A stretch of DNA of 64,000 bases from a bacterium (lineage in GTDB: Bacteria > SZUA-79 > Acidulodesulfobacterales > Acidulodesulfobacteraceae): assembly GCA_021777135.1 (NCBI GenBank), contig JAJYDX010000005.1:62001-126000 (forward strand), given 5' to 3'. The notes under the pieces are model-generated. The model did no database searches. It was not told where the DNA came from and saw nothing but the letters and a program-made list of their open reading frames with translations. Positions 6,118 to 30,447 of this stretch are shown here, piece after piece. Each line of letters opens with the position of its first letter. Position 1 is the stretch's first letter. Position numbers and translations under genes: made by a program.

Positions 6118-6166
6118 GTTTATTTGTAACGCAAAGTAATTTTATTACAGGTTTTAGATACGGCAG

Positions 6167-6189: not shown

Positions 6190-6223
6190 TAAGCGCGAAG
6201 CGCGCAAGGGGAAGTTCGGACTT

Positions 6224-6898: not shown

Positions 6899-6905
6899 TA
6901 TACCA

Positions 6906-7071: not shown

Positions 7072-7130
7072 CTTGGCAGATTAGCTTTAGATATACAACT
7101 TCTCATTAAAAAGGGGATTGGCTAAAAACT
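7066..7130. repeat. Inverted, diverged copy of the 67-bp unit
   Basis: On the minus strand this reads AGTTTTTAGCC, CCCCTTTTTAATGAGAAG, TTGTATATCTAAAGCTAA, then CAAGGGAGT, which is unit 1 of the left array (6224-6291) joined to the start of the next unit. It has the same TTAATGAGAAG variant as unit 1. The whole 6.2-7.1 kb island is thus framed by inverted copies. Positions 7131-7203 beyond it show nothing recognisable. Confidence 0.75.
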
Positions 7131-7203
7131 CGAATGCTTTAAGCGATACGCGACTTGATATAAGCCTATAAGTTCCATAAGATTAAGAATTAACCCAAAT
7201 TAT

Positions 7204-8097: not shown

Positions 8098-8118
8098 TAG
8101 AATACCCCGCTAATTTTT

Positions 8119-8898: not shown

Positions 8899-8957
8899 AA
8901 TTTTCCGTCAATTTTTAATAATAAATATGTTTATATAATAAATTATAAATTATCCGT

Positions 8958-9707: not shown

Positions 9708-9713
9708 ATGTTT

Positions 9714-10844: not shown

Positions 10845-10910
10845 AAGATTTATATTATAATACTATATTATATCTATATCTATTTAAAACAATTAAGCGG
10901 GTAAAAACCG

Positions 10911-12636: not shown

Positions 12637-12663
12637 TTTTTATTATTTCCTTTGATTAGCAAG

Positions 12664-13263: not shown

Positions 13264-13281
13264 TTTAATAAAATAGAAATT

Positions 13282-13920: not shown

Positions 13921-13948
13921 TGAAAATCTCCTTTTTTATATAAATTTT

Positions 13949-14896
13949 TTAAATAAACAGCGAACTGACAGAATCCTCGTCGTGAATTCTTTTAACAGCT
14001 TCACCTAAGATATTAGCAACGCTTAATATTTTAATCTTCTTTGAAAACACCTGCCTGTTTTTTTGATTTATAGTATCGGTTATTATAAGTTCTTTTATAG
14101 GAGAACTGTCTATTTTGCTCATTGCTTCGCCGGATAATACGCCGTGCGCCGCCATTGCTATTACTTCGCTTGCGCCGTTATTGGAAATAGCCGCCGCACC
14201 CTGAGTTATAGTTCCGGCAGTATCTATCATGTCGTCTAACATAATGGCTATTTTATTTTTGACGTCGCCTATGACGGTCATTATTTCTGCAACATTTGCT
14301 TTAATCCTTCTTTTATCTATTATGGCAAGATTTGAGCCTAAATGCTTGGCAAAAGACCTTGCTCTTTCAACCGCTCCAGCGTCTGGAGAAACTACTACTA
14401 TATCTTCCGGCTTATAATTTTTTTCTTTTATATATTGGAGCAACACGGGCGCCGCATATAAATGGTCAACTGGGATATTAAAAAAACCCTGTATCTGACC
14501 CGCGTGCAAATCCATGGATAACATCCTGTCGGCTCCAGCAGTCGTAATTATATCCGCTACCAGTTTAGCGGTTATCGGTACTCTTGAGGCGGTTTTTCTA
14601 TCCTGCCTAGCGTAGCCGTAATATGGGATAACGGCGGTTATCCTGTTTGCCGACGCCCTTTTCATGGCATCTATCATTATCAGCAATTCCATTAGATTTT
14701 TATCAACAGGATTAGAGGTTGACTGCATAAGGAAAATATCGCATCCCCTGACGTTTTCGTTAATATTGATAAATGTTTCCCCGTCGCTGAAATTGTAAAC
14801 CTCGGCGTCTCCCAATGGTATGCCGAGATAGCCTGCCATCTTTTCAGCAAGTTCCTTGTTGGAATTGCCCGTAAATAATTTTAATTTATTCGTCAT
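13949..14896 (-). CDS. prs: Ribose-phosphate pyrophosphokinase (PRPP synthase)
   Basis: 315 aa, the usual class I length. It makes PRPP from ribose 5-phosphate and ATP for nucleotide, His, Trp and NAD synthesis. Visible signatures: YYGYARQDRK, the DLHAGQIQGFF metal/ribose loop, VVVSPDAGAVERAR, and the PRPP-binding loop MLDDMIDTAGTI. The start at 14896 begins MTNKLKLFTGNSNKELAE, as in homologues. First gene of the prs-rplY-pth-ychF run. Confidence 0.96.
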   Translation of the reverse strand: MTNKLKLFTGNSNKELAEKMAGYLGIPLGDAEVYNFSDGETFININENVRGCDIFLMQSTSNPVDKNLMELLIMIDAMKRASANRITAVIPYYGYARQDRKTASRVPITAKLVADIITTAGADRMLSMDLHAGQIQGFFNIPVDHLYAAPVLLQYIKEKNYKPEDIVVVSPDAGAVERARSFAKHLGSNLAIIDKRRIKANVAEIMTVIGDVKNKIAIMLDDMIDTAGTITQGAAAISNNGASEVIAMAAHGVLSGEAMSKIDSSPIKELIITDTINQKNRQVFSKKIKILSVANILGEAVKRIHDEDSVSSLFI

Positions 14897-14988
14897 ATTG
14901 TTAATTATATTTACTGCCGAGGATGACTCGCACGCTTCGCATGCTCATGATCGCCTACCCTGCCGTATTGTTAATTTTATTTACTGCC
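14896..14988. repeat. Pair of 23-bp direct repeats upstream of prs
   Basis: Copies at 14896-14918 and 14966-14988 (TATTGTTAATTxTATTTACTGCC) differ at one base and are 70 bp apart. The interval is a short GC-richer stretch (GATGACTCGCACGCTTCGCATGC) unlike its surroundings. The first copy overlaps the prs start codon. They may mark a small insertion or duplication between prs and tRNA-Gln. Confidence 0.7.
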
Positions 14989-15005
14989 TTTGTCTTACAT
15001 TCTGC

Positions 15006-15080
15006 TGGCTGGGGCGGGAGGATTCGAACCTCCGAATGCAGGAATCAAAATCCTGTGACTTGCCGCTTGTCGACGCCCCA
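15006..15080 (-). tRNA. tRNA-Gln (UUG)
   Basis: Cloverleaf on the minus strand: acceptor TGGGGCG/CGCCCCA, discriminator G, encoded CCA (15006-15008). The anticodon stem CAGGA/TCCTG closes a TTTTGAT loop with anticodon TTG. The T-arm GGAGGTTCGAATCCTCC is perfect. It lies between spoVG and prs, a placement seen in other Deltaproteobacteria. Confidence 0.95.
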
Positions 15081-15123
15081 ATTTATATATCCGCAACACA
15101 AAGACAAGAGGATACCGTCTTTA

Positions 15124-15387
15124 TTATTCCTGACTGTTCATAGCGGCTTCGTATGCCGCAAGTACAGCCGATTCTATCATATCCCTCGTTTCATTGTTTA
15201 AAGGGTGCGCAGTGTCTTTAAAGGTGCCGTCCTTCCTTTTTTTACTAGGCATCGCTACAAATAAGCCGTCCTTTCCGTTAATTATTTTGAGGTCTCTTAC
15301 AACAAAACAGTTATCAAACGTTATTGTAACATAAGCTTTTAACTTCTCTTCGTCTACGGGAAAAACGTTAACTTCAGTAACTTGCAT
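15124..15387 (-). CDS. spoVG: Septation / RNA-binding regulator SpoVG
   Basis: 87 aa. Begins MQVTEVNVFPVDEEKLKAYV and contains VVRDLKIINGKDGLFVAMPS and FKDTAHPLN, the SpoVG signature in full. In Gram-positives and Borrelia SpoVG binds nucleic acid and affects septation and gene expression; its role in Gram-negatives is poorly known. A GGAGGGA site precedes the ATG. It follows ispE by 35 bases and precedes tRNA-Gln, so it probably shares the ispE transcript. Confidence 0.93.
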   Translation of the reverse strand: MQVTEVNVFPVDEEKLKAYVTITFDNCFVVRDLKIINGKDGLFVAMPSKKRKDGTFKDTAHPLNNETRDMIESAVLAAYEAAMNSQE

Positions 15388-15422
15388 AATAAAATCCCTC
15401 CAAAAATAAATTGAGTAATAGT

Positions 15423-16316
15423 TTATAAAGTTTCTGTTAAATAACTCATGCGTATCCTGTCATAAAAACTAAACGATTTCAAGTCTTTAAGGTATGAATT
15501 TGCACCGGTCAAGCTCTTAAACGCGCCGAACATGGCGGAACCGCTTCCAGATAAAAGAGATACCTCGGCTCCATTTAAAATTAACGATTCTTTTATATCC
15601 ATAAGAACCGGATATTTTTTAAATATTGCCTTCTCAAAATCATTTTCAAACTCTAAATCTTTAAAGCCTAAGTATTGAATATTATAATAATTTATATTAT
15701 TTGTCAACAAAAAATCATCATAGTCGGCATATGCTTCCTTGGTGCTTATTCCAAAATCAGGTATAATTAATACTATGTGGTACTTCGGCAATGCGCCAAT
15801 TTCAATTTCCTCGATATTTTCTCCGAAACCGCTTACTAAAGCATCGCTTTCCGCTAAAAAAAACGGCAGGTCCGAACCGGTTTCCAATGCAAGATTCCTT
15901 AATTCAAAATTATCTAATATGTTATCGTATGCATTGTTTAGCTTTAGCAGTAAACCTGCTCCGTCACTTGAGCCGCCGCCAAGCCCCGCGTTGAACGGTA
16001 TGTTTTTTTCTATCAGGACGTCTATAGCTTTATCTTTTATTTTTAATTTATTAAAAAAATTTTTTGCCGCCTTAACGACTATGTTGTTTTCGTTTGAAAT
16101 CGATTCCAGTTCGGCTTCTATGGCGGTATATTTTGAAATTGAACCAGGGATTACTTTAACATTATAACCGTTTTCCGTAATCTTAAAAGAAATTTTATCG
16201 GCTATCCCGATTCTTCTCATTAAGGAATGAATTTTATGGAGACCCGCCGGCTCTTTTCTGCCGATTCTCAGGGAAAAATTAATCTTTGCGGGAGCATAAT
16301 AATTTATATTCTCCAT
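15423..16316 (-). CDS. ispE: 4-diphosphocytidyl-2-C-methyl-D-erythritol kinase
   Basis: 297 aa GHMP kinase of the MEP isoprenoid pathway. YAPAKINFSLRIG carries the Lys of the substrate site, IPFNAGLGGGSSDGAGLLL is the ATP loop with the following Asp, and LSGSGSAMFGAF is the third GHMP motif. Its 5' end overlaps the end of nuoN by 13 bases, so translation may be coupled to the nuo message. It is thus probably expressed from the nuo promoter or from a site inside nuoN. Confidence 0.94.
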   Translation of the reverse strand: MENINYYAPAKINFSLRIGRKEPAGLHKIHSLMRRIGIADKISFKITENGYNVKVIPGSISKYTAIEAELESISNENNIVVKAAKNFFNKLKIKDKAIDVLIEKNIPFNAGLGGGSSDGAGLLLKLNNAYDNILDNFELRNLALETGSDLPFFLAESDALVSGFGENIEEIEIGALPKYHIVLIIPDFGISTKEAYADYDDFLLTNNINYYNIQYLGFKDLEFENDFEKAIFKKYPVLMDIKESLILNGAEVSLLSGSGSAMFGAFKSLTGANSYLKDLKSFSFYDRIRMSYLTETL

Positions 16317-17857
16317 AAAAAACCGGCAGAATTATTAGCAAAATTGATAAATATTTGAGGAAATATTCCCATAAAAAGCGTTAAAATTAAACAAATTATA
16401 ATAGTAATCATTATTCCTTCATCTATCGCGCCGCCGGCAATTTCAGGAATATTGCCCTGGACGGATGAATTTGAAGAAGCGGCGGCAGGCTCTTTATCGG
16501 GCATATACATTTTCACGATTATCTTAATATAATAAAATGCCGCAAAGGCGCTGTTTAATAAAGCTATTATCACTAGCCAGTTATAACCGGACTTGACGGC
16601 TGAAGAAAATACGTAAAATTTCCCCATAAATCCGGAAGTTATCGGTATTCCGGCAAACGACAGCAAAAAAAACGACATGGAAGCGGCAATAAACGGATAT
16701 TTATATCCTATACCGGAATATTTTTTAATATCTAACGAAATTAAATTTGAATTTTCAAATATTATGACGACGGAAAATGCTCCCGCGGTCATAAAAATAT
16801 AAGACAGCAAATAAAACAGTGTCCCGGAATAACCATAAAAACCGCCGCCTATAATACCCGTTAAAATATAACCCGCCTGCGCTATCGATGAATACGCGAG
16901 AAGCCTTTTAATATTTGTGGACAAAAGCGCCGCTATATTTCCGAACGTCATGGAAAAAACCGCGAGAAGCCATAATATATCGTTAAAATTCATAACATTA
17001 AAATCGTAAATAAGAGAATAAATCCTTAAGAAAATTGCGAAAGCGGCTAATTTTATTCCGGTAGCCATAAAATTCGTAACCGGCGTAGGAGCGCCGTCGT
17101 AAGCATCCGGCGTCCAAGAATGAAACGGAAACAAAGACATTTTAAAAGCGAGTCCAATTAAAAATAAAATTAATCCCGCCGAAATATACACTTTAATTCC
17201 TATACTGCCGCCACTGCCGGCAACGCCTAAATAAGAAACATTTTGTAAAAATGAATGTATGCCGTACAAGTTTAAGCGTCCGGTAGAAGCATAAATAAAA
17301 ACCGAACCGAAAAGTAAAAAAGCGGACGCGAACGCGCCGAGTACGAAATATTTAAGAGCCGCTTCCGTGCTTCTAGTATTGTCTTTAATATATCCCGTAA
17401 GTATATAGGCGCATATAGACATAAACTCTAAGGATAAAAAAACCATTATTAAATTATTGGACGATACTAAAAACATCATCGCCGACAGCCCGAAAAGAAT
17501 AAGGCTGTAATATTCAGGCGCGGGCATTCCGGAATTTTCAATATAATCTTTTGACATTAAAACCGTAAATAAACCTGAAAATAAAATAGCTATAAATAAA
17601 AACGCGTCAAAACCGTTAAAAACGAAAGACCCGTAAAAACCGGATATATTCCTGCCGGCAAGCATCAATACATAAAGAATGGAAAAAACTATGCCTATCA
17701 AAGAAAGATAATAAGAGTTATTTCTTTTTGCAAGTTTTTCAAAAAATGCAAGAAAAAGTACAAAAAAAGCAAATATTATAATTACGGTTTCCGGGATAAT
17801 GCCGAGCATGCTTTTTTCCAAGAAATTCATCCCGTATATAGAAGGCATATTATGCAT
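16304..17857 (-). CDS. nuoN: NADH-quinone oxidoreductase subunit N
   Basis: 517 aa, about 14 membrane helices, antiporter-like proton-pumping subunit of complex I. The motif FPFHSWTPDAYDGAPTPVTNFMATGIKLAAF is the proton channel half-site with the conserved Lys/Pro, and KYFVLGAFASAFLLFG holds the TM7 Lys. Last gene of the nuo operon; overlaps nuoM by 8 bases and ispE by 13. A small soluble loop near residues 455-475 is Ala/Ser-rich. Confidence 0.95.
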   Translation of the reverse strand: MHNMPSIYGMNFLEKSMLGIIPETVIIIFAFFVLFLAFFEKLAKRNNSYYLSLIGIVFSILYVLMLAGRNISGFYGSFVFNGFDAFLFIAILFSGLFTVLMSKDYIENSGMPAPEYYSLILFGLSAMMFLVSSNNLIMVFLSLEFMSICAYILTGYIKDNTRSTEAALKYFVLGAFASAFLLFGSVFIYASTGRLNLYGIHSFLQNVSYLGVAGSGGSIGIKVYISAGLILFLIGLAFKMSLFPFHSWTPDAYDGAPTPVTNFMATGIKLAAFAIFLRIYSLIYDFNVMNFNDILWLLAVFSMTFGNIAALLSTNIKRLLAYSSIAQAGYILTGIIGGGFYGYSGTLFYLLSYIFMTAGAFSVVIIFENSNLISLDIKKYSGIGYKYPFIAASMSFFLLSFAGIPITSGFMGKFYVFSSAVKSGYNWLVIIALLNSAFAAFYYIKIIVKMYMPDKEPAAASSNSSVQGNIPEIAGGAIDEGIMITIIICLILTLFMGIFPQIFINFANNSAGFLWRI

Positions 17858-19391
17858 TAGACAACCCCGTCTTTAATTTAATTACGTTATAAACAATATT
17901 ATGATGGTTTAGCATGGAAACAAAATGTAAAACGGTAGGATCTATTCTTTCCAAAAAAGGCATGGGGTAAAACCCTATTAAAAACATAAGGATAATCAAA
18001 GGCAAAACGGTTATGATTTCCCTTAAATTCATATCTTCGAAGTTTTCTGCCGCAGGGTTCGTAACGCCCTGGAACATGACTCTTTGAAACATCCATAATA
18101 AATAAACGGCGGCAAAAATAATACCGCTTGTAGCTATAACCGTTAAAACGGGGTAGCTATGGAACGAACCTATCAATATTAAAAATTCTCCTATGAATCC
18201 GTTCAATCCGGGAAGCCCAACCGACGCTAAAACGGAAATCATAAAAAGCGCCGTAAACACGGGAGCTTTTTTTGCTATACCCCCAAAATCTTTAATTTGT
18301 CTGGTATGCATTCTTTCATAAAGCATTCCGACGAATAAAAAAAGCGCTCCTGTCGCTATTCCGTGGTTCAATAACTGTAAAACTGCCCCGTTTATGCTAA
18401 TTACAGACATCGCAAATAATCCTAACATTATAAAACCCATATGGGAAACGCTGGAAAAGGCGACTAATCTTTTTAAATCCTTCTGGACTATAGAAACAAA
18501 AGCGCCGTAAAGAATACCTATGACCCCAAGGATAATAACAAACGGAGCAAGCGTAAAAGCTGCTTCCGGCAAAAGAGGGATGGCAAACCTGAAAAATCCG
18601 TAAACGCCGAACTTCAACAAAACGCCAGCAAGTATAACGCTGCCGGCGGTAGGTGCTTCTGTATGCGCGTCTGGAAGCCATGTATGAAATGGAAAAAGCG
18701 GTATTTTTATGGCAAAACCTAAAAATAAAGCTATAAACAATATCAGCTGAAGACCGCTTGGAATATTTGTATTATATAGCCTTAATATATTAAACGTGAA
18801 ATTTCCTGTCTGGTTATAATGCATTATAAATATATATATTAATCCGAAAAGCATAATCAAAGAACCCGAAAGGGTGTAAAGGACAAACTTGACCGCTGAA
18901 TAAACCCTTTTTCCTGTCCCCCACATACCTATGATAAAATACATGGGTATAAGCATAAATTCCCAGAAAAGATAAAAAAGCAAAACGTCTAAAGACGCAA
19001 AAGTCCCAATCATAAACGTTTCCAGCAAAAGCATCAGTATAACAAATTCCTTAACGTGTTCTTTTATATATCTATAGCTCGATAATAAAGAAATAAACGT
19101 TAATAGCGTGGTCAATAAAATTAAAAAAAGGCTGACCCCGTCAATTCCTAAGAAATATGATGCTCCGAAAGAAGGAATCCAGCTTGATTTTTCCACAAAC
19201 TGAAATTTATATGTATCCTGTTTAAAATAAACAAAAAGATAAAACGAAAAAATAAGTTCCACCAACGATAAGAAAGTGGAAAGATTTCTTAATACGCCTT
19301 GGTTCTTTTTATTTATCGGAAGCAATAAAAAAATAGAAGCAGCCGGAAAAAAAATCAATACAGACAGCAGATGTTTTATGAAAAAATCCAT
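17850..19391 (-). CDS. nuoM: NADH-quinone oxidoreductase subunit M
   Basis: 513 aa from ATG 19391, with about 14 membrane helices. FPFHTWLPDAHTEAPTAGSVILAGVLLKFGVYG is the antiporter signature, and FWEFMLIPMYFIIG holds the TM5 Glu of the proton channel. The frame extends upstream to a TTG at 19448 inside nuoL, but those 19 residues are not family-like, and ATG 19391 has an AAGGGA about 11 bases upstream. That start gives the normal N-terminus MDFFIKHLLSVLIFFPA. Confidence 0.95.
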   Translation of the reverse strand: MDFFIKHLLSVLIFFPAASIFLLLPINKKNQGVLRNLSTFLSLVELIFSFYLFVYFKQDTYKFQFVEKSSWIPSFGASYFLGIDGVSLFLILLTTLLTFISLLSSYRYIKEHVKEFVILMLLLETFMIGTFASLDVLLFYLFWEFMLIPMYFIIGMWGTGKRVYSAVKFVLYTLSGSLIMLFGLIYIFIMHYNQTGNFTFNILRLYNTNIPSGLQLILFIALFLGFAIKIPLFPFHTWLPDAHTEAPTAGSVILAGVLLKFGVYGFFRFAIPLLPEAAFTLAPFVIILGVIGILYGAFVSIVQKDLKRLVAFSSVSHMGFIMLGLFAMSVISINGAVLQLLNHGIATGALFLFVGMLYERMHTRQIKDFGGIAKKAPVFTALFMISVLASVGLPGLNGFIGEFLILIGSFHSYPVLTVIATSGIIFAAVYLLWMFQRVMFQGVTNPAAENFEDMNLREIITVLPLIILMFLIGFYPMPFLERIDPTVLHFVSMLNHHNIVYNVIKLKTGLSNA

Positions 19392-19416
19392 ATAATAATA
19401 TCCCTTAAGTTCAATT

Positions 19417-21300
19417 TTATCTAATAAAATAATAGAAAAGAAGAGCAACGGCGCCTATCGACAAAGTTAAGATATAGCTCATCAACATTCCGTTTTGAAT
19501 TTTTCGCGCTTTAACCGAAAAAAAAGAAAAAGCCGAAGCCGTGCCGTTGACGGCGCCGTCTATAATTTTTATATCTACGACCCTCCAAAGGAAATCAAAA
19601 AAAACCAGCATCGGCTTTACTATCAAAAAATTATATATCTCGTCTATATAAACTTTATTATAGGACAGCGCATATAAGGGCTTAAATATCGATTTTATTT
19701 TTTCCGGGCTTACCGTTTTTTTAATATATAAAATGTATGCGGCATAAATACCGGATAATCCCATTAAAACGGATATTAAGCTCAAAATATACCATGGAAC
19801 ATTATTCACTGCCGGCGCGAATACTGCCGCATTTTTAAAATCCGTATGCAAAAAGCCGTAAAATAAAGATTCGTTAAAAGGAGGCATACCCAGAAAGCCT
19901 ATTATTACTGCTAACGAAGCCAGTATTATCATGGGAACCGTCATAATTTTAGAAGATTCATGGACATGCTTGGCGGGGTCAAGCTTGGATTCCGAAAAAA
20001 ATGCCAGAAATATTAATCTGAAAATATAAAAAGCTGTCATTAACGCGGTTATTTCACCTATCGCCCAGGCAAAATAAAAACCCTTGTTATAAATATCGGC
20101 AAGTATCGCGTCTTTCGAGAAAAAACCGGAAAACGGAGGAATGCCGGATAACGCGAGCCCGCCGACTATAAACGTAACGGCGGTAGTTTTCATTTTTGAA
20201 TAAAGCCCGCCCATTTTCCTTAAATCCAGCTCTCCGGAAAGCCCGTGCATCACGCTTCCGGCGGTTAGAAATAACAGCCCTTTAAAAACAGCGTGGGAAA
20301 TCAGGTGAAATATACCGGCGGTATAGGAACCTATTCCGACCGCCATAAACATATATCCTAACTGGCTTATGGTAGAATAGGCGATAATTCTTTTAATATC
20401 GAACTGCGTAAGAGCTATAAACGCTGCAAAAAAAGCTGTAAATGTACCTACCGCAAGCACTACTTCGGAAGCGGCGGGAGAATATGAGAATATAATATGA
20501 AACCTTGCAATCATATATACTCCGGCGGTAACCATTGTCGCGGCATGTATGAGCGCGCTAACCGGAGTGGGTCCTTCCATGGCGTCCGGCAGCCATACAT
20601 GCAAAGGGAACTGGGCAGACTTTCCGACTGCGCCCGCAAACAAAAGCAAAGCAATAGCTGTCGTCGTGTAAACAGGCATAGAAGGAATAAATGTGAATAC
20701 CGTTTCGTAATTAAGCGTTTTTGTAGTAGCGAATAAAAGGAAAATGCCTGCCGCAAAACCAAAATCCCCTATCCTGTTAACTATAAATGCTTTTTTTCCG
20801 GCATCTGAAGCAGATTTTTTTTCGTACCAGAATCCTATAAGAACATAAGAACAGAATCCTACCGCCTCCCAAAATACGTATAGAAGCAAAAGATTATTTG
20901 AAATTACGAGCATTATCATAGAAAAAACAAAAAGGTTCAGAAACGAAAAATACCTCGAAAAACCTTTTTCGCCTTCCATATATCCGATTGAATATATATG
21001 GACTAACGTGCTGACGCCGGTAACCATAACCAGCATAACCACCGAAAGCCGGTCTATAACGGCTGATACGCCGGCTTTAAATATTCCGGCATGAACCCAA
21101 GGATAAAGGGTATCGGTAAACCCGTGCGAATATGCAACTATAAAGAAAAGTACGACCGACAAGATAAAAGATACGCCTACAAAACCTGAGGCAATATATC
21201 CGGATAAACCCTTAAAATATTTTCCGAATAAACCCCATAGCAACCAGCCTGAAAGCGGAAATAAAGGAATTAGCCATGTAATTAGTATTTTTATATCCAT
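19417..21300 (-). CDS. nuoL: NADH-quinone oxidoreductase subunit L
   Basis: 627 aa, about 16 membrane helices plus the lateral amphipathic helix region near the C-terminus (about 520-600). FWEAVGFCSYVLIGFWYEKKSASDAGKKAF carries the TM5 Glu, FPLHVWLPDAMEGPTPVSALIHAATMVTAGVYM is the antiporter signature, and Lys residues of the central axis are present. Distal proton-pumping subunit. It is followed by nuoM after about 25 bases. Confidence 0.96.
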   Translation of the reverse strand: MDIKILITWLIPLFPLSGWLLWGLFGKYFKGLSGYIASGFVGVSFILSVVLFFIVAYSHGFTDTLYPWVHAGIFKAGVSAVIDRLSVVMLVMVTGVSTLVHIYSIGYMEGEKGFSRYFSFLNLFVFSMIMLVISNNLLLLYVFWEAVGFCSYVLIGFWYEKKSASDAGKKAFIVNRIGDFGFAAGIFLLFATTKTLNYETVFTFIPSMPVYTTTAIALLLFAGAVGKSAQFPLHVWLPDAMEGPTPVSALIHAATMVTAGVYMIARFHIIFSYSPAASEVVLAVGTFTAFFAAFIALTQFDIKRIIAYSTISQLGYMFMAVGIGSYTAGIFHLISHAVFKGLLFLTAGSVMHGLSGELDLRKMGGLYSKMKTTAVTFIVGGLALSGIPPFSGFFSKDAILADIYNKGFYFAWAIGEITALMTAFYIFRLIFLAFFSESKLDPAKHVHESSKIMTVPMIILASLAVIIGFLGMPPFNESLFYGFLHTDFKNAAVFAPAVNNVPWYILSLISVLMGLSGIYAAYILYIKKTVSPEKIKSIFKPLYALSYNKVYIDEIYNFLIVKPMLVFFDFLWRVVDIKIIDGAVNGTASAFSFFSVKARKIQNGMLMSYILTLSIGAVALLFYYFIR

Positions 21301-21338: not shown

Positions 21339-21632
21339 TTAATTTTTCAGTTCGTTTGCCCTGTCTATATCAAGCGTTCCTTTTTCCCTGTAAAAAGCGA
21401 TAGCGATGCCAAGGGCTATAGCAGCCTCGGCGGCTGCCACTACTATAATAAAAATTACGAATATATCTCCCGAGATAAGATTAAGATAATTGGACGCAGC
21501 TACAAACCCAAGATTAGCGGCATTAAACATAAGTTCCAAGCTCATAAAAACTACTATCAAGTTTTTTCTGGTAATTACTCCTAAAGCTCCTATGCAGAAA
21601 ATAATACTTGCAACCGTTAAATAATTATTCAT
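21339..21632 (-). CDS. nuoK: NADH-quinone oxidoreductase subunit K
   Basis: 97 aa with three membrane helices. FMSLELMFNAANLG and VVAAAEAAIALGIAIAFYR contain the two conserved membrane Glu residues of NuoK that connect the E-channel to the antiporter arm. Length matches the family (about 100). Standard place between nuoJ and nuoL. Confidence 0.96.
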   Translation of the reverse strand: MNNYLTVASIIFCIGALGVITRKNLIVVFMSLELMFNAANLGFVAASNYLNLISGDIFVIFIIVVAAAEAAIALGIAIAFYREKGTLDIDRANELKN

Positions 21633-21658: not shown

Positions 21659-22162
21659 TTAATATTTCTTCTTCGCAAATAAATAAGCCCCTACTATCGC
21701 GACCAATAAAAGAACGGAAGCGATTTCAAAAGGCAGCATATAAACCGTAAATAAAAACTGTCCTATAATTTTGGTATTTCCTACTTTTTTAATTAATGCT
21801 TCGGTAAAAATACCGGTAGGATTTTTTTGCGCTCCGTTGTATATATAAACAATAATTTCAATAAATAAAATTAAGGCAATTAATATGCCTATAATTTTTT
21901 GATGCAAGTCTGATTTAACATTTTTTATTCTAGAAATATTTAACAGCATTATAACCAAAACAACGAGAACCATTATTGCCCCTGCATAGACAAGTATCTG
22001 CATAGCCGCTAAAAACTGCATATCCAGCATTACGTAAAGACCGGCAAGAGCAAAAAAGCATAAAATAAGGTAAAGTGCAGAAGTCAGGGGATTTCTCATG
22101 ATTACAACCATTAAAGCGGAAAAAATTGCGATAAACGAAAAAATATAAAAAAGTTCTTCCAA
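21659..22162 (-). CDS. nuoJ: NADH-quinone oxidoreductase subunit J
   Basis: 167 aa, five membrane helices. NPLTSALYLILCFFALAGLYVML and LAAMQILVYAGAIMVLVVLVIMLLN are the NuoJ hallmarks; the helix containing YAG includes the pi-bulge region involved in coupling. It is slightly shorter than E. coli NuoJ. Position between nuoI and nuoK agrees. Confidence 0.96.
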   Translation of the reverse strand: MEELFYIFSFIAIFSALMVVIMRNPLTSALYLILCFFALAGLYVMLDMQFLAAMQILVYAGAIMVLVVLVIMLLNISRIKNVKSDLHQKIIGILIALILFIEIIVYIYNGAQKNPTGIFTEALIKKVGNTKIIGQFLFTVYMLPFEIASVLLLVAIVGAYLFAKKKY

Positions 22163-22196: not shown

Positions 22197-22712
22197 TTAC
22201 CTTGATTTAATTAATTTTTCTATTCCGTATATGCCTTCGTCGCGCGTATAAAATGCGACTTCGTAATTGCTGCCCATACTAATAGCTTCTTCGGGACAAA
22301 TCTCCTCGCAGTACCCGCAGCAAATGCACCTTAGGAGGTCTATCTCAAATGAGGAGGGATGCCTTCTCCCGTCGTTAAAAGTTTCTTCTTTAATCTTATC
22401 TAAACTGTGATTATGTTTCTGTCTTTCGGTAAGTTCATGTCCCTCTCCGTAATCGACATAGCCGGATATTATTTTAATGGCTTCCGAAGGGCATACCGTC
22501 TGGCATAAAAAACACGCCACGCACCTCAAAGAACCGTCTCCGTTAACGTTAAGATGCGGAAAAGCCCTGAACCTTTCGGCTATAGGAATCCTTTCTTTCG
22601 GATATTGAAAGGTTACAGGCTTGCGAAAAAAAGTTTTAACGGTCGTTTTAAGTCCGATTAAAAAATTTTTAGAGATTTCTATAATAGAATTTTCCTGTTT
22701 TTCCGTATCCAT
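22197..22712 (-). CDS. nuoI: NADH-quinone oxidoreductase subunit I (2 [4Fe-4S])
   Basis: 171 aa peripheral subunit carrying clusters N6a and N6b. The two motifs are RCVACFLCQTVCPSEAI and RCICCGYCEEICPEEAI, each C-X2-C-X2-C-X3-CP. It passes electrons to NuoB and the quinone site. An N-terminal amphipathic stretch (GLKTTVKTFFRKPVTFQYP) probably lies on the membrane surface. Sits 13 bases after nuoH. Confidence 0.96.
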   Translation of the reverse strand: MDTEKQENSIIEISKNFLIGLKTTVKTFFRKPVTFQYPKERIPIAERFRAFPHLNVNGDGSLRCVACFLCQTVCPSEAIKIISGYVDYGEGHELTERQKHNHSLDKIKEETFNDGRRHPSSFEIDLLRCICCGYCEEICPEEAISMGSNYEVAFYTRDEGIYGIEKLIKSR

Positions 22713-22725
22713 ATATTACTGGTAT

Positions 22726-23712
22726 TTACCCTTTAATTAAAATCATTATAAAACCGGTAACTACAATATTCGCTAAAGCTAAAGGCAATAAAACTTTCCA
22801 TCCTAAATCCATAAGTTCGTCGTACCTGAGTCTGGGATATGTCCATCTGAGCCATAAATATATTAAAATTACAAAAAAAACTTTGATTAAAAACCATAAA
22901 ACTGACGGAAGAAACGGTCCCTGCCAGCCGCCCAGAAATAAAGTGACTATTATGGCGCTGTTAACGACCATTTGCGCATATTCCCCTATGAAATAAAACG
23001 CAAATTCCATGCTTGAGTATTCCGTATGAAAACCAGCTACAAGTTCTCCTTCCGCTTCGCCCAAATCAAAAGGAACCCTGTTCATTTCCGCTGTAGAAGC
23101 AATTAAATAAATTATGAATCCTACGGGCTGATATACCACGAACCAGATATTAGATTGTTCGGAAACAATTTTTGACAGGCTTAAATCTCCGGCAATCATA
23201 ATTACGCCAATTATTGAAAGGACAAGGGGGATTTCGTAACTAATCATCTGGGCGGCGGTCCTAATGGCGCCCAGCAAGGAATATTTACTATTGGACGCCC
23301 ATCCGCCTAAAACTACCCCGTAAACGCCCAGCGAAGTTAATGCCAGAATAAAAAGTATGCCTATATTTACGTCGGCGACTTGAAGAGGCACGATATGCCC
23401 CATAATTTTTACCGGAGCGCCGAAAGGTATAACGGCAAAAGTCGTGAGTGCTGGAATAACTACAATTATTGGAGCTAAAAAAAATAAAAGCCTGTTGGCT
23501 CCCGACGGTATTATGTCTTCCTTAAAGAAAAGCTTTATACCGTCTGCTATAGGTTGCAGCAGCCCATGAAAACCGGCTTCCATCGGACCCATTCTGTTTT
23601 GTATTCTAGCGGCTATCTTGCGCTCCAGAAGCGTAAGATAAGCTGCGGACATAAGCAGTCCGGCAAAAACGATTAAAATTTTAATAATATCTGCTATAAG
23701 ACCGAATAACAT
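22726..23712 (-). CDS. nuoH: NADH-quinone oxidoreductase subunit H
   Basis: 328 aa with eight or nine membrane helices. LLERKIAARIQNRMGPMEAGFHGLLQPIADGIKLFFKED forms the quinone-chamber loop, and RVPFDLGEAEGELVAGFHTEYSSMEFAFYF is the conserved Glu-rich segment of the E-channel entry. Slightly shorter than enterobacterial NuoH but complete at both ends. Confidence 0.96.
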   Translation of the reverse strand: MLFGLIADIIKILIVFAGLLMSAAYLTLLERKIAARIQNRMGPMEAGFHGLLQPIADGIKLFFKEDIIPSGANRLLFFLAPIIVVIPALTTFAVIPFGAPVKIMGHIVPLQVADVNIGILFILALTSLGVYGVVLGGWASNSKYSLLGAIRTAAQMISYEIPLVLSIIGVIMIAGDLSLSKIVSEQSNIWFVVYQPVGFIIYLIASTAEMNRVPFDLGEAEGELVAGFHTEYSSMEFAFYFIGEYAQMVVNSAIIVTLFLGGWQGPFLPSVLWFLIKVFFVILIYLWLRWTYPRLRYDELMDLGWKVLLPLALANIVVTGFIMILIKG

Positions 23713-23729: not shown

Positions 23730-25838
23730 TTAATAAATTTTTTTAGTTTTATCGTTATAATAGAATACGCTTCTGGATTTAATTTTATTATAATATATCA
23801 TATCTTTAGCCTTTAATGAATTAATAAAATCCGATGTTTCTTGTTTTATATAATTAAAAGAATACCCAAGCCTGCTCGATAATTCAATTAAAAGGGACGG
23901 AATATCGTATCTGTATTCTCCTAAATTAAACTCGTTATTTACGTTAATTATTTTACCTTCCGAATTTTCATAAAAGGAACCTCTGCTTTCAAGAAAGTCC
24001 TTGACCGGTATAACTACATCCGCCATATTTGAAAGAATACTTGTTTTAGACGAAAAAACTGCTAAAAATTCCATATCCGACGCATATTTAATTATATCTT
24101 TAGACGCGGCATCGTTGACTATATCGCCTATATATATAATATTCTTAATCTTACCGCCGCTTAATCCTGAATTTATAGCGCCGAAACCTGAAAAGTCATC
24201 TTCCGGATTAACCCCCGCATTTATAAGCCCCCGATAATTAAAAGGTTTAATTAAAGGATTGATATATAATGTTTTTTGATGGTCTTTTAAAAACTCGACT
24301 ATTTCTCTTAATATTAAAATATCGGAACCCATATCGTATGCCGACAAAAAACCGTCTCCCAAAACAATGGAAATAGAACCTGCTTCAAGCATATTTTTTG
24401 CAATTTCATTATTGTTTTTAAATCCGTTATCGTAAATATCGGACCGCAAACTGCTTAAAAAATCATGCATAAAGGGTACGCCGACGTCTTTCCTTACATG
24501 GGCTATATCTTCAAATCTGGTTAATAAAGGGGTGTTGTCTTTTTTTACGTTTATCAATAAAAGTTTTCCGCTGTGTTCCCTGTGCGTTTTCATTATATTG
24601 TATGAAACATAGGGAATCTCGTCTTCTATATTTCCAAAATAAAGTATAACTTCGGAGTTCTCAAGAGCTTTAATATCGAATACGTCTTCGTCCTTAAATA
24701 TTGTCTTAAATTTATTAAGGTTTCTCCTGTAAAATTCCGGCTCAGCTATATCAAAATACGACGGTTTAAGAACATTTTTTACGAAACCGGCTATTGCAAA
24801 ACCGTCGTCTGAAGAAACGTTAGGAGAAACCAAAACGGCTGTATTTTGCATACCGCCTTTTTCAGAAATCTTCTGAACCCTTAACCCGAATTCCTTAAGG
24901 GCGTTTTCGGCAGAAACCTCTTCAGGCGCTGATTTCTTTTTTACGTATGGCGACAAAATATAGTATCCGCTGTTTTTTCCTATGCCTTCGTAAAAAAAAC
25001 CTTGCTTGCAAAGATACCCGCCAAATATTGATTCGGTCCTGACCAATGATTCTTCTTTATCATATCTGTAATATTCTGTTCTGCAGGCGGCTGAGCACTT
25101 ATCGCAAACCGATGAAAAAGGCGACTCCAACCAGTATCTTTCTTTAAATTTCGACGGTTTGGAAAGAAGGGCGCCTACCGGACAGACTTCTATGCAATTT
25201 CCGCAATAATAGCAATCTAAGTAATTAACTTCGGGCTTAATTTCAGTAAATCCGCAGTTCTCTGAAGGAATTGCCCCCATTTGCAATTTATGGTCTTGTT
25301 TTAAACCTATATAACCGTTATATCCTTTGTTCTTAATTTGGTAAAACGGATCTCCGTACATATCCGTGCAAACCCTGATACATCTTGAACATAGAACGCA
25401 CCTCGTAGCATGATATTCAATCAGGTCGCTTTTAAAAATATTAGTCCTGTCCGGAAAAACCTTTTTATTTTTCTGCGTTGTAATACCGAATTCAAAAGAA
25501 AGGTCCTGCAAAGTGCATTTGCCGGATTTATCACAAACCGGACAATCTAGCGGGTGGTCAAGCAGAAGATGCGATATTACTTCTTTTCTAACCTTCCACA
25601 GTTTTTCGGTATCCGTTAAAATTTCATACCCTTCTTTTACCCTCGCAACACAAGACGGCAGAGGATTTTTAATCCCTTTAACCTCGACTACGCAAATTCT
25701 GCAAGAACCTACGGGTCTTAGCCTTCTAATATAGCAAAGCGTCGGTATTTTTATACCATTTTGGGCGGCAGCCTCAAGAATGGTAGCACCCGATTTAGTC
25801 ATTAGTTTTTTGCCGTTTATCGTAATTTCTATATCCAT
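23730..25838 (-). CDS. nuoG: Complex I NuoG-like subunit with extra [4Fe-4S] cluster
   Basis: 702 aa. Visible cofactor sites in order: [2Fe-2S] N1b at C35, C46, C49, C63; HC3 cluster N5 at H95, C99, C102, C108; two ferredoxin-type sets C147-X2-C150-X2-C153-X3-C157 and C209-X2-C212-X2-C215-X3-C219-P; and an N7-type set C245, C248, C252, C277. The eight-cysteine ferredoxin pair is the form seen in Fe-hydrogenases and formate dehydrogenase subunits; typical NuoG has only the four ligands of N4 there. Residues about 240-702 form the molybdopterin-oxidoreductase-like fold without clear pterin-binding residues. It directly follows the NuoF/GltD fusion gene. Confidence 0.93.
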   Translation of the reverse strand: MDIEITINGKKLMTKSGATILEAAAQNGIKIPTLCYIRRLRPVGSCRICVVEVKGIKNPLPSCVARVKEGYEILTDTEKLWKVRKEVISHLLLDHPLDCPVCDKSGKCTLQDLSFEFGITTQKNKKVFPDRTNIFKSDLIEYHATRCVLCSRCIRVCTDMYGDPFYQIKNKGYNGYIGLKQDHKLQMGAIPSENCGFTEIKPEVNYLDCYYCGNCIEVCPVGALLSKPSKFKERYWLESPFSSVCDKCSAACRTEYYRYDKEESLVRTESIFGGYLCKQGFFYEGIGKNSGYYILSPYVKKKSAPEEVSAENALKEFGLRVQKISEKGGMQNTAVLVSPNVSSDDGFAIAGFVKNVLKPSYFDIAEPEFYRRNLNKFKTIFKDEDVFDIKALENSEVILYFGNIEDEIPYVSYNIMKTHREHSGKLLLINVKKDNTPLLTRFEDIAHVRKDVGVPFMHDFLSSLRSDIYDNGFKNNNEIAKNMLEAGSISIVLGDGFLSAYDMGSDILILREIVEFLKDHQKTLYINPLIKPFNYRGLINAGVNPEDDFSGFGAINSGLSGGKIKNIIYIGDIVNDAASKDIIKYASDMEFLAVFSSKTSILSNMADVVIPVKDFLESRGSFYENSEGKIINVNNEFNLGEYRYDIPSLLIELSSRLGYSFNYIKQETSDFINSLKAKDMIYYNKIKSRSVFYYNDKTKKIY

Positions 25839-25887: not shown

Positions 25888-27795
25888 TTAATTTTTGAAC
25901 TTAACCAGCATAAGAAAATAACACCTCATGCACCTTGTCGCTTCATAAACAACATCGTCGGCGGTTAAACCTTTATCGACCTCCATGAAATTACACACGC
26001 GCTTTTCGACTTCTTCTTCAATCTGCTTCGCCGGCGGATTTCCTGCCGGAAAATCGGTGTAGTCTATTATTTCTTTTTTGTCGTACACGCCTATATTTTC
26101 AAGCAAATATTCAAAAATACAATCGTCCGTCGCTTCGAAAGAACCGGTTCTTATATACTGGTCTATTCTTCTTGCCGCATTCTTGCCGTCGCGGTTTGAA
26201 GCTACGATGCTTAGGGGTCCCGTAAACGCGTCGCCGCCCGCAAATACGCCGGGCATATCCGTCATATGGGTAAAACCGTCAGCCATAATTATTTTGCCCC
26301 TGTCAGTTTTAATTTCCGGCGAATCTTTTAAAAAATCAAAATCAGGAACCTGTCCTACCGCCATAATAAACGAATCGCATTCTATTTCGAAATCGGAACC
26401 CGATACTTCTATGGGGCTTCTTCTACCGCTTTCATCGGGTTCGCCAAGCTTCATTTTTCTGCACTTGACGCCTTTGACTGCGCCGTTTTCCTGAATAATA
26501 CTTACAGGGTTAGTTAAAAATTCAAATTTAACGCCTTCTTTAATGGCGGTGTCTATTTCGTACGGCGCCGCGGGCATTTGCTCCCTAGCCCTTCTATACG
26601 CTACGATAACTTCTTTAAACCCTAATCTGATTGCGGTCCTGCAACAATCTATGGCTACGTTGCCGCCGCCTTCTATGATAACTTTCTTTCCGATTTCAAC
26701 TTTATTGCCAAGAGAAACATCCCTTAAAAATTTAACCCCTTCATAAAAACCTTTAAGATTGTCGTTCTCTCCGGGCAGTCCAATATTTTGACCTTTGTGT
26801 GCGCCGACCGCAAGAAAAACTGCCTTAAAATCACGTTCAAAAAGATCCTGAATCCTAAAATCGCTTCCAAGTTTTTGGTTTAATTTATAATCTATTCCAG
26901 TGGAAAGAATATAGTCAATTTCCTTATCTAAAAATTCTTTAGGCAACCTGTACTTTGGTATGCCTACATTAAGCATTCCACCTAAAACTGGCAACGATTC
27001 AAATATTACCGGTTTATAGCCCATCAAACGCAAATAATATGCGCAGCTTAAGCCGGCTGGACCGGAACCTACTATCGCTACCTTGATACCGTTGTCTTTT
27101 ATTGCAAACTTAGGCTTAATATCGGAATCAAATTCATTGTCAGCCGCAAATCTTCTGATTAAACATATCTGGATAGGCTCATCGACGTTAGCCCTGCGGC
27201 AATTATCCTGACAGGGATGAAAACATGTCCTTCCTAAAATTCCCGCTAACGGAGTATTTCTTCTCGCCGATTCCAGCGCATCCTCAAATCTGCCGTCTCT
27301 AACCTTTTCTATCCAGTTTGGAATATCAAGTTTTGACGGACAGCCGTTAATGCAAGGAGCGGTTACCTTTGTAATATAATCTCCTTTAGGGATAATTTCT
27401 TTATTTACTATGGCATTTTCAAAATCTTCTTTAAAATTATCTATTAGTTCTGTAACAGCCAACGGTCCCATAGTTCCAACGGTACATTTAGAAGAAGATA
27501 AAATCCATTCGCATTGGTTCTTTAGCCTGTCCAAATCTTCTAAAATAGCATGACCGTTACATATATGCTCAAGAATTTCGGAAGCAACCGATGTTCCAAT
27601 CATGCACGGAGTACAAACCCCGCATGAAATCTTTTGAAGCTCCTGCATATAACAACGCGCGAGGTCAACTTTATTATCCTCGTCGTCAAGCAATGCTACG
27701 CCTTTCCAATTAAGTATTGAAGATATTTCGTTATGACCGGTTCTTTTAAAAAACGAAGTATCTAATTTTGAACCAATTTTATTGATAATTTTCAT
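25888..27795 (-). CDS. Fusion of NuoF-type [4Fe-4S] domain with GltD-like FAD/NAD(P) oxidoreductase
   Basis: 635 aa, standing where nuoE-nuoF normally lie. Residues about 45-125 match the C-terminal cluster N3 domain of NuoF (SCGVCTPCMIGT: C58, C61, C64, with C104 in SKCTVGTMGPLA). The FMN/NADH-binding Rossmann domain and SLBB domain of NuoF are missing. Residues about 145-225 are the GltD N-terminal Fe-S domain (C148, C152, C191, C195, C199), about 238-270 the FAD site (VGSGPAGLS), and near residue 370 a second dinucleotide site (EGGGNVAIDCCR) followed by AYRRAREQMPA, a pattern of NADPH-using GltD/NfnB relatives. The C-terminus ends shortly after a CMRC motif. Likely the electron-input module of this complex I, oxidising NAD(P)H; the donor is inferred, not shown. 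Confidence 0.88.
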   Translation of the reverse strand: MKIINKIGSKLDTSFFKRTGHNEISSILNWKGVALLDDEDNKVDLARCYMQELQKISCGVCTPCMIGTSVASEILEHICNGHAILEDLDRLKNQCEWILSSSKCTVGTMGPLAVTELIDNFKEDFENAIVNKEIIPKGDYITKVTAPCINGCPSKLDIPNWIEKVRDGRFEDALESARRNTPLAGILGRTCFHPCQDNCRRANVDEPIQICLIRRFAADNEFDSDIKPKFAIKDNGIKVAIVGSGPAGLSCAYYLRLMGYKPVIFESLPVLGGMLNVGIPKYRLPKEFLDKEIDYILSTGIDYKLNQKLGSDFRIQDLFERDFKAVFLAVGAHKGQNIGLPGENDNLKGFYEGVKFLRDVSLGNKVEIGKKVIIEGGGNVAIDCCRTAIRLGFKEVIVAYRRAREQMPAAPYEIDTAIKEGVKFEFLTNPVSIIQENGAVKGVKCRKMKLGEPDESGRRSPIEVSGSDFEIECDSFIMAVGQVPDFDFLKDSPEIKTDRGKIIMADGFTHMTDMPGVFAGGDAFTGPLSIVASNRDGKNAARRIDQYIRTGSFEATDDCIFEYLLENIGVYDKKEIIDYTDFPAGNPPAKQIEEEVEKRVCNFMEVDKGLTADDVVYEATRCMRCYFLMLVKFKN

Positions 27796-27845: not shown

Positions 27846-29045
27846 TTACCTGTCCACTTCTCCAAGCAATATATCTACGCTTCCCATGATAGCTATTAAA
27901 TCGGCTACCATATGTCCTTTAACCATTTTATTTAAAGCGCTTATATTGCAGAATGACGGCGGTCTCACTCTCATTCTGTATGGAAATGCAGAACCGTCCG
28001 ATACCAGATAAAAGCCTAATTCTCCTCTTGGGTTTTCTATGGAAACGTAAGCTTCTCCCTTAGGAGGCTTTATGCCTTCCATACCATATTTAAAAAGAGA
28101 AATCATACCCTCCATAGTTGTTAAAGCCCTCTTTTTTGGCGGAATGACGTAGTGCGGATATTCATCGTAACTTAAATATTCCCCTTCAGGAACATTCTCC
28201 ACCGCCTGCGAAATTATTTTAAGGCTCTGGCGCATTTCTTCCATTCTGACTAAATACCTGTCGTAAACATCTCCTGTTTCTCCCGTAGGTATCTCAAAAT
28301 CGAAATCCTCATAGCTAGAATATGGATTTGCCCTTCTGACGTCGTATTTTACACCGCTTCCCCTGAGCGACGGTCCGGTTAACGCAAAACCTATGGCATC
28401 TTCGGCAGAAATTATTCCTAAATTTTTCGTCCTTTCCAGCCATATTTTATTTTTTGTAAGCAAAGCTTCATATTCGCTTATTTTATCCGGAAAAATTTTA
28501 ATAAAGCTGCGGGTTTTATCGAAAAAATCTTTATGCGCGTCCATCGCAAGGCCGCCGACGCGGTAAAAGGAAGGGGTCATTCTGGCGCCGGTAACAGTTT
28601 CTATTATGTCTAATATAAGCTCTCTTTCACGGAAGCAGTATAAAAACTCGGTTAACGCTCCAAGGTCAACGGCATGCGTCGCAAGCCATACCAAATGCGA
28701 GCTAATCCTTGTAAATTCCGCAAGAATTACTCTTATGTATTCGGCTCTTTTAGGGGCTTTGACTCCGCAGAGTTTTTCAACCGCGAGTATATAGCCGAGA
28801 TTATTAGAAGCTCCGGCAACATAGTCCATCCTGTCGGTAATTGTTTCCGCCTGATGATATGTCTTAAATTCCGCGTATTTTTCCATGCTGGTATGCAGGT
28901 AGCCTATTATAGGCTCTGCATTGACGACGGTTTCTCCGTCTAGCTGGACTAAAACCCTTAGAACGCCATGAGTGGCAGGATGGGAAGGGCCTATATTTAA
29001 CGAAAACTTATCAGTTTCTATAAGAAAATCTTTATATTCGAACAT
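27846..29045 (-). CDS. nuoD: NADH-quinone oxidoreductase subunit D
   Basis: 399 aa, the 49-kDa homologue and quinone-site subunit. NIGPSHPATHGVLRV holds the conserved quinone-loop His, followed by GYLHTSMEKYAEFKTYHQAETITDRMDYV and the C-terminal GEVDR. It is separate from NuoC (fused in enterobacteria). Evolutionarily it derives from the NiFe-hydrogenase large subunit, but the metal-binding cysteines are absent as expected. Confidence 0.97.
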   Translation of the reverse strand: MFEYKDFLIETDKFSLNIGPSHPATHGVLRVLVQLDGETVVNAEPIIGYLHTSMEKYAEFKTYHQAETITDRMDYVAGASNNLGYILAVEKLCGVKAPKRAEYIRVILAEFTRISSHLVWLATHAVDLGALTEFLYCFRERELILDIIETVTGARMTPSFYRVGGLAMDAHKDFFDKTRSFIKIFPDKISEYEALLTKNKIWLERTKNLGIISAEDAIGFALTGPSLRGSGVKYDVRRANPYSSYEDFDFEIPTGETGDVYDRYLVRMEEMRQSLKIISQAVENVPEGEYLSYDEYPHYVIPPKKRALTTMEGMISLFKYGMEGIKPPKGEAYVSIENPRGELGFYLVSDGSAFPYRMRVRPPSFCNISALNKMVKGHMVADLIAIMGSVDILLGEVDR

Positions 29046-29091: not shown

Positions 29092-29595
29092 TTATTCTAT
29101 ATATCCCGGAGCGTCCATTTTAATTTCTTCAGGCTCCGGTCTTTTTCTTAAAGGATAATCTTTAAGAAGGGGGTGTCCGTCCCAGTCGTCGGGATTTAAT
29201 ATTCTTTTTAAGTCCGGATGATTTTTAAATTTTAAACCGAACATATCGTACACTTCTCTTTCAAACCAGTCAGCGGAATCATAAAGCGGCGTTAGACTAG
29301 GATATTCCGTTTCTTCTACTTTACTAGAAACCTTAACAAAAATCCTGAAGTTATTTTTCATCGAGTATAAATTATAAATCACTTCTACCCTTTCCGCTTT
29401 TTTTGGATAATCTACGGCAAATAAATCGGACAGCATATCAAATTCTAATCTGGTATCCGACTTTAAAAAGGAGGCAAATTCTATTAAATCCTCTTTTTTA
29501 ATCTGTATATGGGCGTCGCCGTTAACGGTATCCGTAGAAACGATAGATTTAGGCTTGGCTTCTTTTATGACTGTCAGTGCAAACATTAAGTCCAT
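29092..29595 (-). CDS. nuoC: NADH-quinone oxidoreductase subunit C
   Basis: 167 aa, 30-kDa subunit. PLYDSADWFEREVYDMFGLKFKNHPDLKRIL followed by WDGHPLLKDYPL is the family signature. Peripheral arm, no cofactor. It is 10 bases downstream of nuoB and 46 upstream of nuoD. Confidence 0.96.
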   Translation of the reverse strand: MDLMFALTVIKEAKPKSIVSTDTVNGDAHIQIKKEDLIEFASFLKSDTRLEFDMLSDLFAVDYPKKAERVEVIYNLYSMKNNFRIFVKVSSKVEETEYPSLTPLYDSADWFEREVYDMFGLKFKNHPDLKRILNPDDWDGHPLLKDYPLRKRPEPEEIKMDAPGYIE

Positions 29596-29605: not shown

Positions 29606-30100
29606 TTATCTTATAAGTTTAGGAGGTTCCTCATTTTTGATAGTTCCCTTTTCTATCTTTTCCTGAAGCTTAACTATGCCGTAAATAAGAGCTTCCGGTC
29701 TTGGAGGACAGCCCGGTATATAGACGTCGACCGGAATTATCCTGTCTACGCCCTGAACTACGCTGTAAACATTAAAAAGTCCTCCGGACGACGCACAGTC
29801 GCCCATTGCGATAACCCACTTAGGGTTGGGCATCTGATCGTAAATTCTCTTAACCATTGGAGCCATTTTATATGAAACCCTGCCGGATACGATAATTAAA
29901 TCGGATTGCCTGGGGCTCGACCTGAAAATTAATCCCAATCTGTCGAAATCGTATCTTGAGGAAGCGACGGTCATCATCTCGATAGCACAGCATGCAAGAC
30001 CGAAAGTAGCAGGCCATATAGACCATTTTCTGCCCCACGAAACTATTTTATCTAAAGAAGCCGTGATGATATTATCGCCTAAATGCTCTTCTATTCCCAT
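29606..30100 (-). CDS. nuoB: NADH-quinone oxidoreductase subunit B
   Basis: 164 aa, holds terminal cluster N2. [11 protein letters not shown] gives the tandem cysteines, and GDCASSGG and [12 protein letters not shown] the other two ligands. SRYDFDRLG and GRVSYKMAP line the quinone cavity. Its start overlaps the end of nuoA by 10 bases. Confidence 0.97.
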
Positions 30101-30447
30101 CTCAGCGCTCCTTTAAGCCATACATACATTAAACCTAAAACTAGTATTATAATAAAAAAGAACATTTCTATAAAACCTAAAAAACCTAATTTATAAAAAA
30201 TTACTGCCCAAGGAAATAAAAAAAGAGCTTCGACGTCGAATAAAAGAAAAAAAATAGCGACGAGATAAAATTTAATATCAAATCTTATATGGGGTTCGCC
30301 GGTCGGCTCCACCCCGCATTCGTAAGCTTTTAACTTTCCGGCTTCAAAAGTTTTTTTTCCAATAAAATTAGAGGCTATTATAGTAAAAACCGCAAATAAA
30401 ATTGCTACGGCGAGCATTATAAGAATAGGCAGAAAAGAATTCAACAA
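30091..30447 (-). CDS. nuoA: NADH-quinone oxidoreductase subunit A
   Basis: 118 aa, three membrane helices. [42 protein letters not shown] is unmistakable, with the ECG cysteine loop and the conserved membrane acids. The start is a TTG: two adjacent TTG codons (30447 and 30444) follow a GGGAG by 2 and 5 bases, so the second (117 aa) is the better-spaced one. First gene of the nuo operon. Confidence 0.95.

Follow-up and report, generated by a model that had tools for sequence, protein, structure and literature searches.

Gene content of the locus and architecture of the fusion protein

The analysed window is a stretch of 64,000 nucleotides (G000:C9:62001-126000) from a 2.12 Mb MAG of 92 contigs with a completeness of 100% and a contamination of 2.11%, and its minus strand carries an operon with the gene order nuoA-B-C-D-fusion-G-H-I-J-K-L-M-N. 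The canonical complex I core subunits A-D and H-N are all encoded in this one operon, and neither NuoE nor a Complex1_51K-type NuoF was found in it among the open reading frames or by Pfam. The first genes are nuoA (30091..30447), recognised by its orthologues in family loci, and nuoB (29606..30100), nuoC (29092..29595) and nuoD (27846..29045), all three with Pfam support, the N2 motif of NuoB (CC ... C ... PGCPP) being intact by eye. They are followed by the gene of a 635-residue fusion protein (25888..27795, called with an ATG start), which is separated by about 50 bp from nuoD on one side and from nuoG on the other. The latter gene (23730..25838) encodes 702 residues, and according to Pfam and a ligand check this predicted partner of the fusion has the ligands of N1b, N5, two [4Fe-4S] clusters in the Nqo3 ferredoxin domain (8 Cys) and N7 all present. 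The remainder consists of nuoH (22726..23712), nuoI (22197..22712; assigned by Pfam and with two CxxCxxCxxxC motifs for N6a and N6b), nuoJ (21659..22162), nuoK (21339..21632), nuoL (19417..21300), nuoM (17850..19448) and nuoN (16304..17857), which apart from nuoI were recognised by orthologues in family loci; those of nuoM align from residue 20, and its true start is probably some 19 codons downstream of the called one. In four other genomes the canonical order is nuoD-E-F-G, and the fusion gene sits exactly in their E-F slot.

The fusion protein joins the N3-cluster domain of NuoF to a GltD/NfnB-like module with Fe-S, FAD and NADP(H) sites. Its N3 [4Fe-4S] domain, which corresponds to the C-terminal part of NuoF, spans residues 26-136 (27388..27720) and is identified by Pfam PF10589 (NADH_4Fe-4S, residues 44-127, 3.4e-18) and by matches to HydB/NuoF chains in the PDB. 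A Fer4_20 domain follows at residues 145-223 (27127..27363; 2.6e-20) with C148, C152, C191, C195, C199 and, in the C7-ligand position, R214, and the FAD and NADP(H) sites lie within a Pyr_redox_2 match at residues 238-535 (26191..27084; 1.6e-29), with the triplet YRR at 400-402. Finally, a CxxC segment at residues 622-625 (25921..25932) completes the GltD-type Fe-S set; it is N-terminal in NfnB but C-terminal in the fusion, as in StnC. The N3 cysteines C58, C61, C64 and C104 are kept in 18 of 18 family rows of the alignment, and all seven of the cysteines 148, 152, 191, 195, 199, 622 and 625 are invariant across the sampled fusions. Since the fusion protein has no Pfam match to Complex1_51K, the FMN/NADH domain is absent. 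The sequence-only reading of this DNA, which described a nuo operon without nuoE and nuoF, a 635-residue fusion in their slot and the retention of nothing but the N3 domain from NuoF, is in these respects borne out by ORFs, Pfam, alignment and the comparison with canonical operons.

Among solved proteins the fusion is most closely related to the chains that bear GltD in Thermococcus NfnABC, Caldicellulosiruptor NfnABC and Sporomusa StnC, followed by NfnL and GltD, and an AlphaFold model obtained with 36 homologues as input scored a pLDDT of 89 and a pTM of 0.88. The presence of NADH_4Fe-4S, Fer4_20 and Pyr_redox_2 in one chain of about 640 residues is an SfrB-like build, and the NuoG/SfrA-like partner encoded next to it is likewise an SfrB-like layout. 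The fusion would on these grounds be a member of a wider SfrB-like adaptor family, Geobacter SfrB having been compared by description only. Against NCBIfam PRK12771 it scores 470.5 bits, which is below the cut-off of 516, as is the score of a stand-alone pair (L193, 459.1). In a plasmid collection only distant or differently built relatives were found.

Occurrence of the fusion within and outside the phylum

When GTDB species genomes were scanned for the fusion, relatives turned up at 70-93% identity in Candidatus Acididesulfobacter AP1, SZUA-79 and further MAGs, and the window is therefore placed in Candidatus Acidulodesulfobacteriota, an uncultured phylum of acid-mine bacteria. Comparison of nuo operons in related genomes, named as a check by the sequence-only reading, gave the order nuoD-fusion-nuoG in 24 of 24 family loci examined. 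Of 30 family genomes 28 have the fusion, and the two that lack it are MAGs with a completeness of 86% and 59%. Recurring at this frequency and level of identity, the arrangement is not a product of chance or misassembly. The describing paper of the order reported nuoE, nuoF and nuoG to be missing and still inferred NADH-linked respiration (PMC6776010), whereas nuoG is present here and the fusion occupies the EF slot.

Fusions of the same build are also found outside the phylum, both beside nuo operons and in other company. A Syntrophobacterales MAG (L076) has nuoA-B-C-D-fusion-G-H, an order as in the window, and 16 genomes of its Thermodesulfobacteriota class carry such a fusion, which in nearly all of them stands between a preceding nuoD and a following nuoG; Nitrospinota MAGs have fusion-nuoG-ABCD-HIJ, and further nuo-linked fusions occur in other families (L185, L186, L187, L192, L194). 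Elsewhere the fusion lies beside genes for selenocysteine-containing formate dehydrogenases (L189, L191 and L208, and similarly L207, where the selenocysteine test was not applied), with a stand-alone NuoG-like partner in the SfrAB layout (L188, L190, L193, L195, L196), beside an [FeFe] hydrogenase (Collinsella, Olsenella) or next to the genes of a 2-oxoacid oxidoreductase, there together with a short ferredoxin as partner (L203, L204). The element common to the examined contexts is that the product of the next gene has a NuoG-type N-terminal ferredoxin domain.

Several of these loci have peculiarities of their own. In L187 (G421, 5063-13410) the nuo operon reads ABCD-fusion-X-HIJ..LM, X being a formate dehydrogenase with a NuoG-type N-terminus in the position of nuoG. 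Its gene has a TGA codon in frame at the U of the motif HCARLUHSST, which corresponds to ARVCH in the Cys enzymes. The same pair of fusion and formate dehydrogenase precedes nuoH in L185 (G283). Such an arrangement suggests a formate-linked complex I in which a selenocysteine formate dehydrogenase would act as NuoG. In L203 (5647-8317) and L204 (7361-10060) the fusion and a ferredoxin of about 240 residues with a NuoG-type N-terminus come directly after the 2-oxoacid:ferredoxin oxidoreductase genes, which suggests an NADP-linked 2-oxoacid oxidoreductase. L147 (G166:C8) has nuoC-nuoD-fusion and then directly nuoH with no nuoG between, and this may reflect a missing gene, a relocation or an assembly gap. 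The third N3 cysteine is replaced by glycine (CxxC..G..C) in the Nitrospinota loci L075, L197, L198 and L182 and in four stand-alone pairs, the N3 cluster of which may have a non-Cys ligand or lack one. A GltD match beside a complex I-like operon in L043 was rejected as a member of the family, its N-terminus being NuoI and not the N3 domain; this locus (G036, 7984-17790) encodes an Mrp/Mbx-like relative of complex I with a NuoI-like subunit fused to a GltD module (609 residues), seemingly a parallel route for joining such a module to a complex I-like enzyme, and a neighbouring ORF (7984-8544) resembles a Hint/intein fragment.

In the fusion tree, which comes from a fast search and contains long branches, the nuo-linked groups of Acidulodesulfobacteriota, of the Thermodesulfobacteriota class and of Nitrospinota are separated from each other. 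With groups named from gene context, AU tests rejected a single clade of all nuo-linked fusions (p = 0.0017) as well as one origin for Acidulodesulfobacteriota and the Thermodesulfobacteriota class (p = 4e-6), but not one origin for Acidulodesulfobacteriota and Nitrospinota (p = 0.51). Rejection of a single origin points to at least two recruitments of the fusion into complex I in bacteria. In the NuoG tree five canonical NuoGs form one clade with no fusion-linked NuoGs inside, and those of the Thermodesulfobacteriota cluster with formate dehydrogenases, a topology that parallels that of the fusion tree. The second [4Fe-4S] set of the window NuoG is absent from E. coli NuoG and four other canonical NuoGs, and could be taken as proof that NuoG had been swapped; this idea was dropped, since the best PDB match, Aquifex NuoG, has the aligned cysteines and since grouping the window NuoG with canonical NuoGs was not rejected (p = 0.33).

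Proposed function and alternative explanations

We consider it probable that the fusion is the electron-input subunit of complex I, replacing NuoE and NuoF in an NADP(H):menaquinone complex I. NADP(H) would bind the GltD-like site and exchange a hydride with FAD, from which single electrons would pass by way of the two [4Fe-4S] clusters of the Fer4_20 part to the N3-type [4Fe-4S] cluster, and further through NuoG (N1b, N5, N4 and the extra [4Fe-4S]), NuoI (N6a, N6b) and NuoB (N2) to menaquinone, the electron transfer being coupled to proton pumping by NuoHJKLMN. In known structures the N3 domain is the part of NuoF that touches NuoG, and docking of the fusion to NuoG through its N3 domain is the most economical assumption, because the contexts examined share a neighbour with the NuoG-type ferredoxin domain that N3 contacts in complex I. 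Both directions would fit this scheme, i.e. oxidation of NADPH or reduction of NADP+ driven by the proton motive force in cells that grow autotrophically on sulfide or Fe(II) under acid conditions.

The alternative that survives best is that the same complex works mainly in reverse, the proton motive force of the acid habitat driving electrons from the quinol pool to NADP+ and so supplying NADPH for the rTCA cycle and biosynthesis. The order has been described from acid mine drainage with rTCA autotrophy, N2 fixation and possible oxidation of sulfide and Fe(II) (PMC6776010), and the transhydrogenase subunit PntB was found in none of 19 family genomes searched. Since the phylum has been described as autotrophic and acid-living and no PntB was found in these genomes, formation of NADPH driven in this way appears as credible as its oxidation. 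However, the sequence fixes no direction, other sources of NADPH such as NADP-dependent dehydrogenases or Nfn are possible, and the same fusion also occurs in the Thermodesulfobacteriota class, and mainly reverse operation is hence a reasonable possibility but not the one we favour.

Use of NADH instead of NADPH by the GltD-like site is unlikely. Some GltD-like enzymes do use NADH, among them E. coli PreT, which is annotated as NAD-dependent, but PreT has ARE where the second Rossmann motif of the fusion (GGGNVAID...YRR) has YRR, and this triplet is shared by the NADPH-dependent E. coli GltD and by all 56 fusion relatives sampled. The pattern, one motif weighed against one NAD-dependent counter-example, supports a preference for NADP(H), and the reading of YRR as an NADPH cue in the earlier note has therefore gained ground.

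Rather less likely still is the notion that the fusion pairs with NuoG in a soluble NADPH oxidoreductase of the SfrAB type that is merely encoded in the nuo operon, the membrane part then being an 11-subunit enzyme with another donor such as ferredoxin. The five loci with a stand-alone fusion and NuoG-like partner show that such pairs are encoded on their own, but this is in poor agreement with the nuoD-fusion-nuoG order kept across the phylum and in the Thermodesulfobacteriota class and with the position of nuoG in the window, which is that of canonical operons.

An Nfn-like bifurcation, in which FAD would send one part of the electrons through NuoG to quinone and the other part to ferredoxin or NAD+, might be considered from the 37-40% identity of the GltD module to NfnL/StnC in a fold alignment and from the presence of R283, which matches StnC R239. 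In StnC, however, K170 is a ligand to the FAD-proximal cluster where bifurcating NfnB has Glu, bifurcation is lost, and a K170R variant keeps about half of the activity (PMC10482914). The Glu ligand is replaced in the fusion as well, the K170 position being Arg (R214) in 18 of 18 family rows and Lys in all other fusion relatives, and since this is as in non-bifurcating StnC it argues against bifurcation and for plain electron transfer. The nuo operon furthermore encodes no NfnA-type partner. Bifurcation is on these grounds very improbable, and the ferredoxin-linked flavoprotein that the earlier note had offered as a possible donor has become less likely for the same two reasons.

NuoE and NuoF domains do occur elsewhere in the source genome, namely joined to each other in two NuoE-NuoF proteins, one encoded on contig C92 and one on C54, so that the earlier statement that these subunits are missing holds for the nuo operon but not for the genome. 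Neither lies beside nuo; each directly adjoins the gene of a formate dehydrogenase catalytic protein of about 990 residues with a NuoG-type N-terminus and an FdsD-like tail, and both loci are accordingly annotated as putative Fds-type NAD formate dehydrogenases. A NuoG-like formate dehydrogenase gene is likewise visible beside NuoEF in 9 of 11 family loci examined, the other two being cut by contig ends. Among 19 family genomes a NuoF domain was found in 11 and not in the remaining 8, which include genomes that are 91-99% complete, and 7 of these 8 still carry the nuo-linked fusion. That the C92 and C54 proteins, complete as their NuoE and NuoF domains are, should join complex I as hidden subunits for NADH input was rejected as the least probable explanation of all, in view of this formate dehydrogenase context and of the near-complete relatives that keep nuo and fusion with no NuoF. 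The objection that normal nuoE and nuoF elsewhere in the genome might serve this complex consequently does not apply, and the exact nuoE-nuoF slot together with the NuoF-less relatives speaks for the earlier view of a replacement. It should also be mentioned that next to the NuoEF-formate dehydrogenase on C54 (L009, G000:C54:109000-128999, 9650-19943) lies a Hyf/Ehr-like energy-converting complex with a NuoCD-like chain lacking evident NiFe CxxC ligands, a NuoB-like, a NuoH-like and several NuoL/M-like subunits, possibly a formate-linked membrane complex.

In favour of an NADP(H)-linked input subunit we thus count the slot and its conservation in 24 loci, YRR, the StnC/NfnABC chains as closest solved relatives, the model scores, the NuoF-less relatives, the lack of PntB, and the description of SfrAB as an NADPH oxidoreductase (PMC7483475, PMC7894505). 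The presence of Arg and not Lys at the predicted cluster-ligand position in Acidulodesulfobacteriota would count against it.

Relation to known systems and implications

Replacement of NuoEF is already known from Campylobacterota, where NuoX and NuoY take the same slot; these are thought to serve flavodoxin or ferredoxin, whereas the fusion is an NAD(P)-binding flavoprotein (PMC6682613). SfrB-type NADPH subunits are likewise known from soluble enzymes, i.e. SfrAB, the NADPH:Fe(III)/viologen oxidoreductase of Geobacter, and SfrB-like hydrogenase partners in Pelobacter (PMC7483475, PMC3543383). SfrAB combines a GltD-like NADPH subunit with a NuoG-like one in the layout of the stand-alone pairs L193 and L196, but is soluble, whereas the pair in the window is encoded within a complete operon for a proton-pumping complex I. 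The StnABC and NfnABC transhydrogenases share the GltD module with C-terminal CxxC, Lys or Arg at the StnC K170 position and electron transfer to NuoG-type clusters, but have GltD inserted in the NuoG chain and retain NuoE/NuoF (FMN) subunits (StnA/StnB in Stn); in the fusion the module is instead joined to an N3 domain, NuoG is separate and the operon is devoid of NuoE and NuoF. Compared to canonical complex I (E. coli, Aquifex) subunits A, B, C, D and G-N and their cluster motifs are the same, but the FMN/NADH domain and NuoE are not encoded in the operon. The 11-subunit complex I of Desulfitobacterium also has no NADH module, but it lacks NuoG and an encoded input protein, both of which the window provides. 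What appears to be new is the SfrB-type subunit in a complex I operon, no description of which was found in the open-licence literature, although this is weak evidence of absence.

A more far-reaching proposal, which we hold with slightly less than even confidence, is that a proton-pumping complex I specific for NADP(H) has arisen by exchange of the NADH input for an interchangeable SfrB-like adaptor in at least two independent recruitments, and that a selenocysteine formate dehydrogenase takes the place of NuoG in some lineages, giving a complex I that is both formate- and NADPH-linked.

The NADH module is what defines complex I, and the NADP(H) pool in cells is usually more reduced than the NAD(H) pool. 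If the proposed function is true, an NADP(H) flavoprotein acting as N-module couples the proton pump to the other nucleotide pool, which would change the energy yield with menaquinone or, in autotrophs, the cost of NADPH. The finding also bears on what feeds complex I-like enzymes without NuoEF and would make the input end of complex I a plug-in module, one that genome pipelines logging just 'nuoEF absent' would overlook. For the phylum itself, it would correct the published inference of NADH-linked respiration (PMC6776010).
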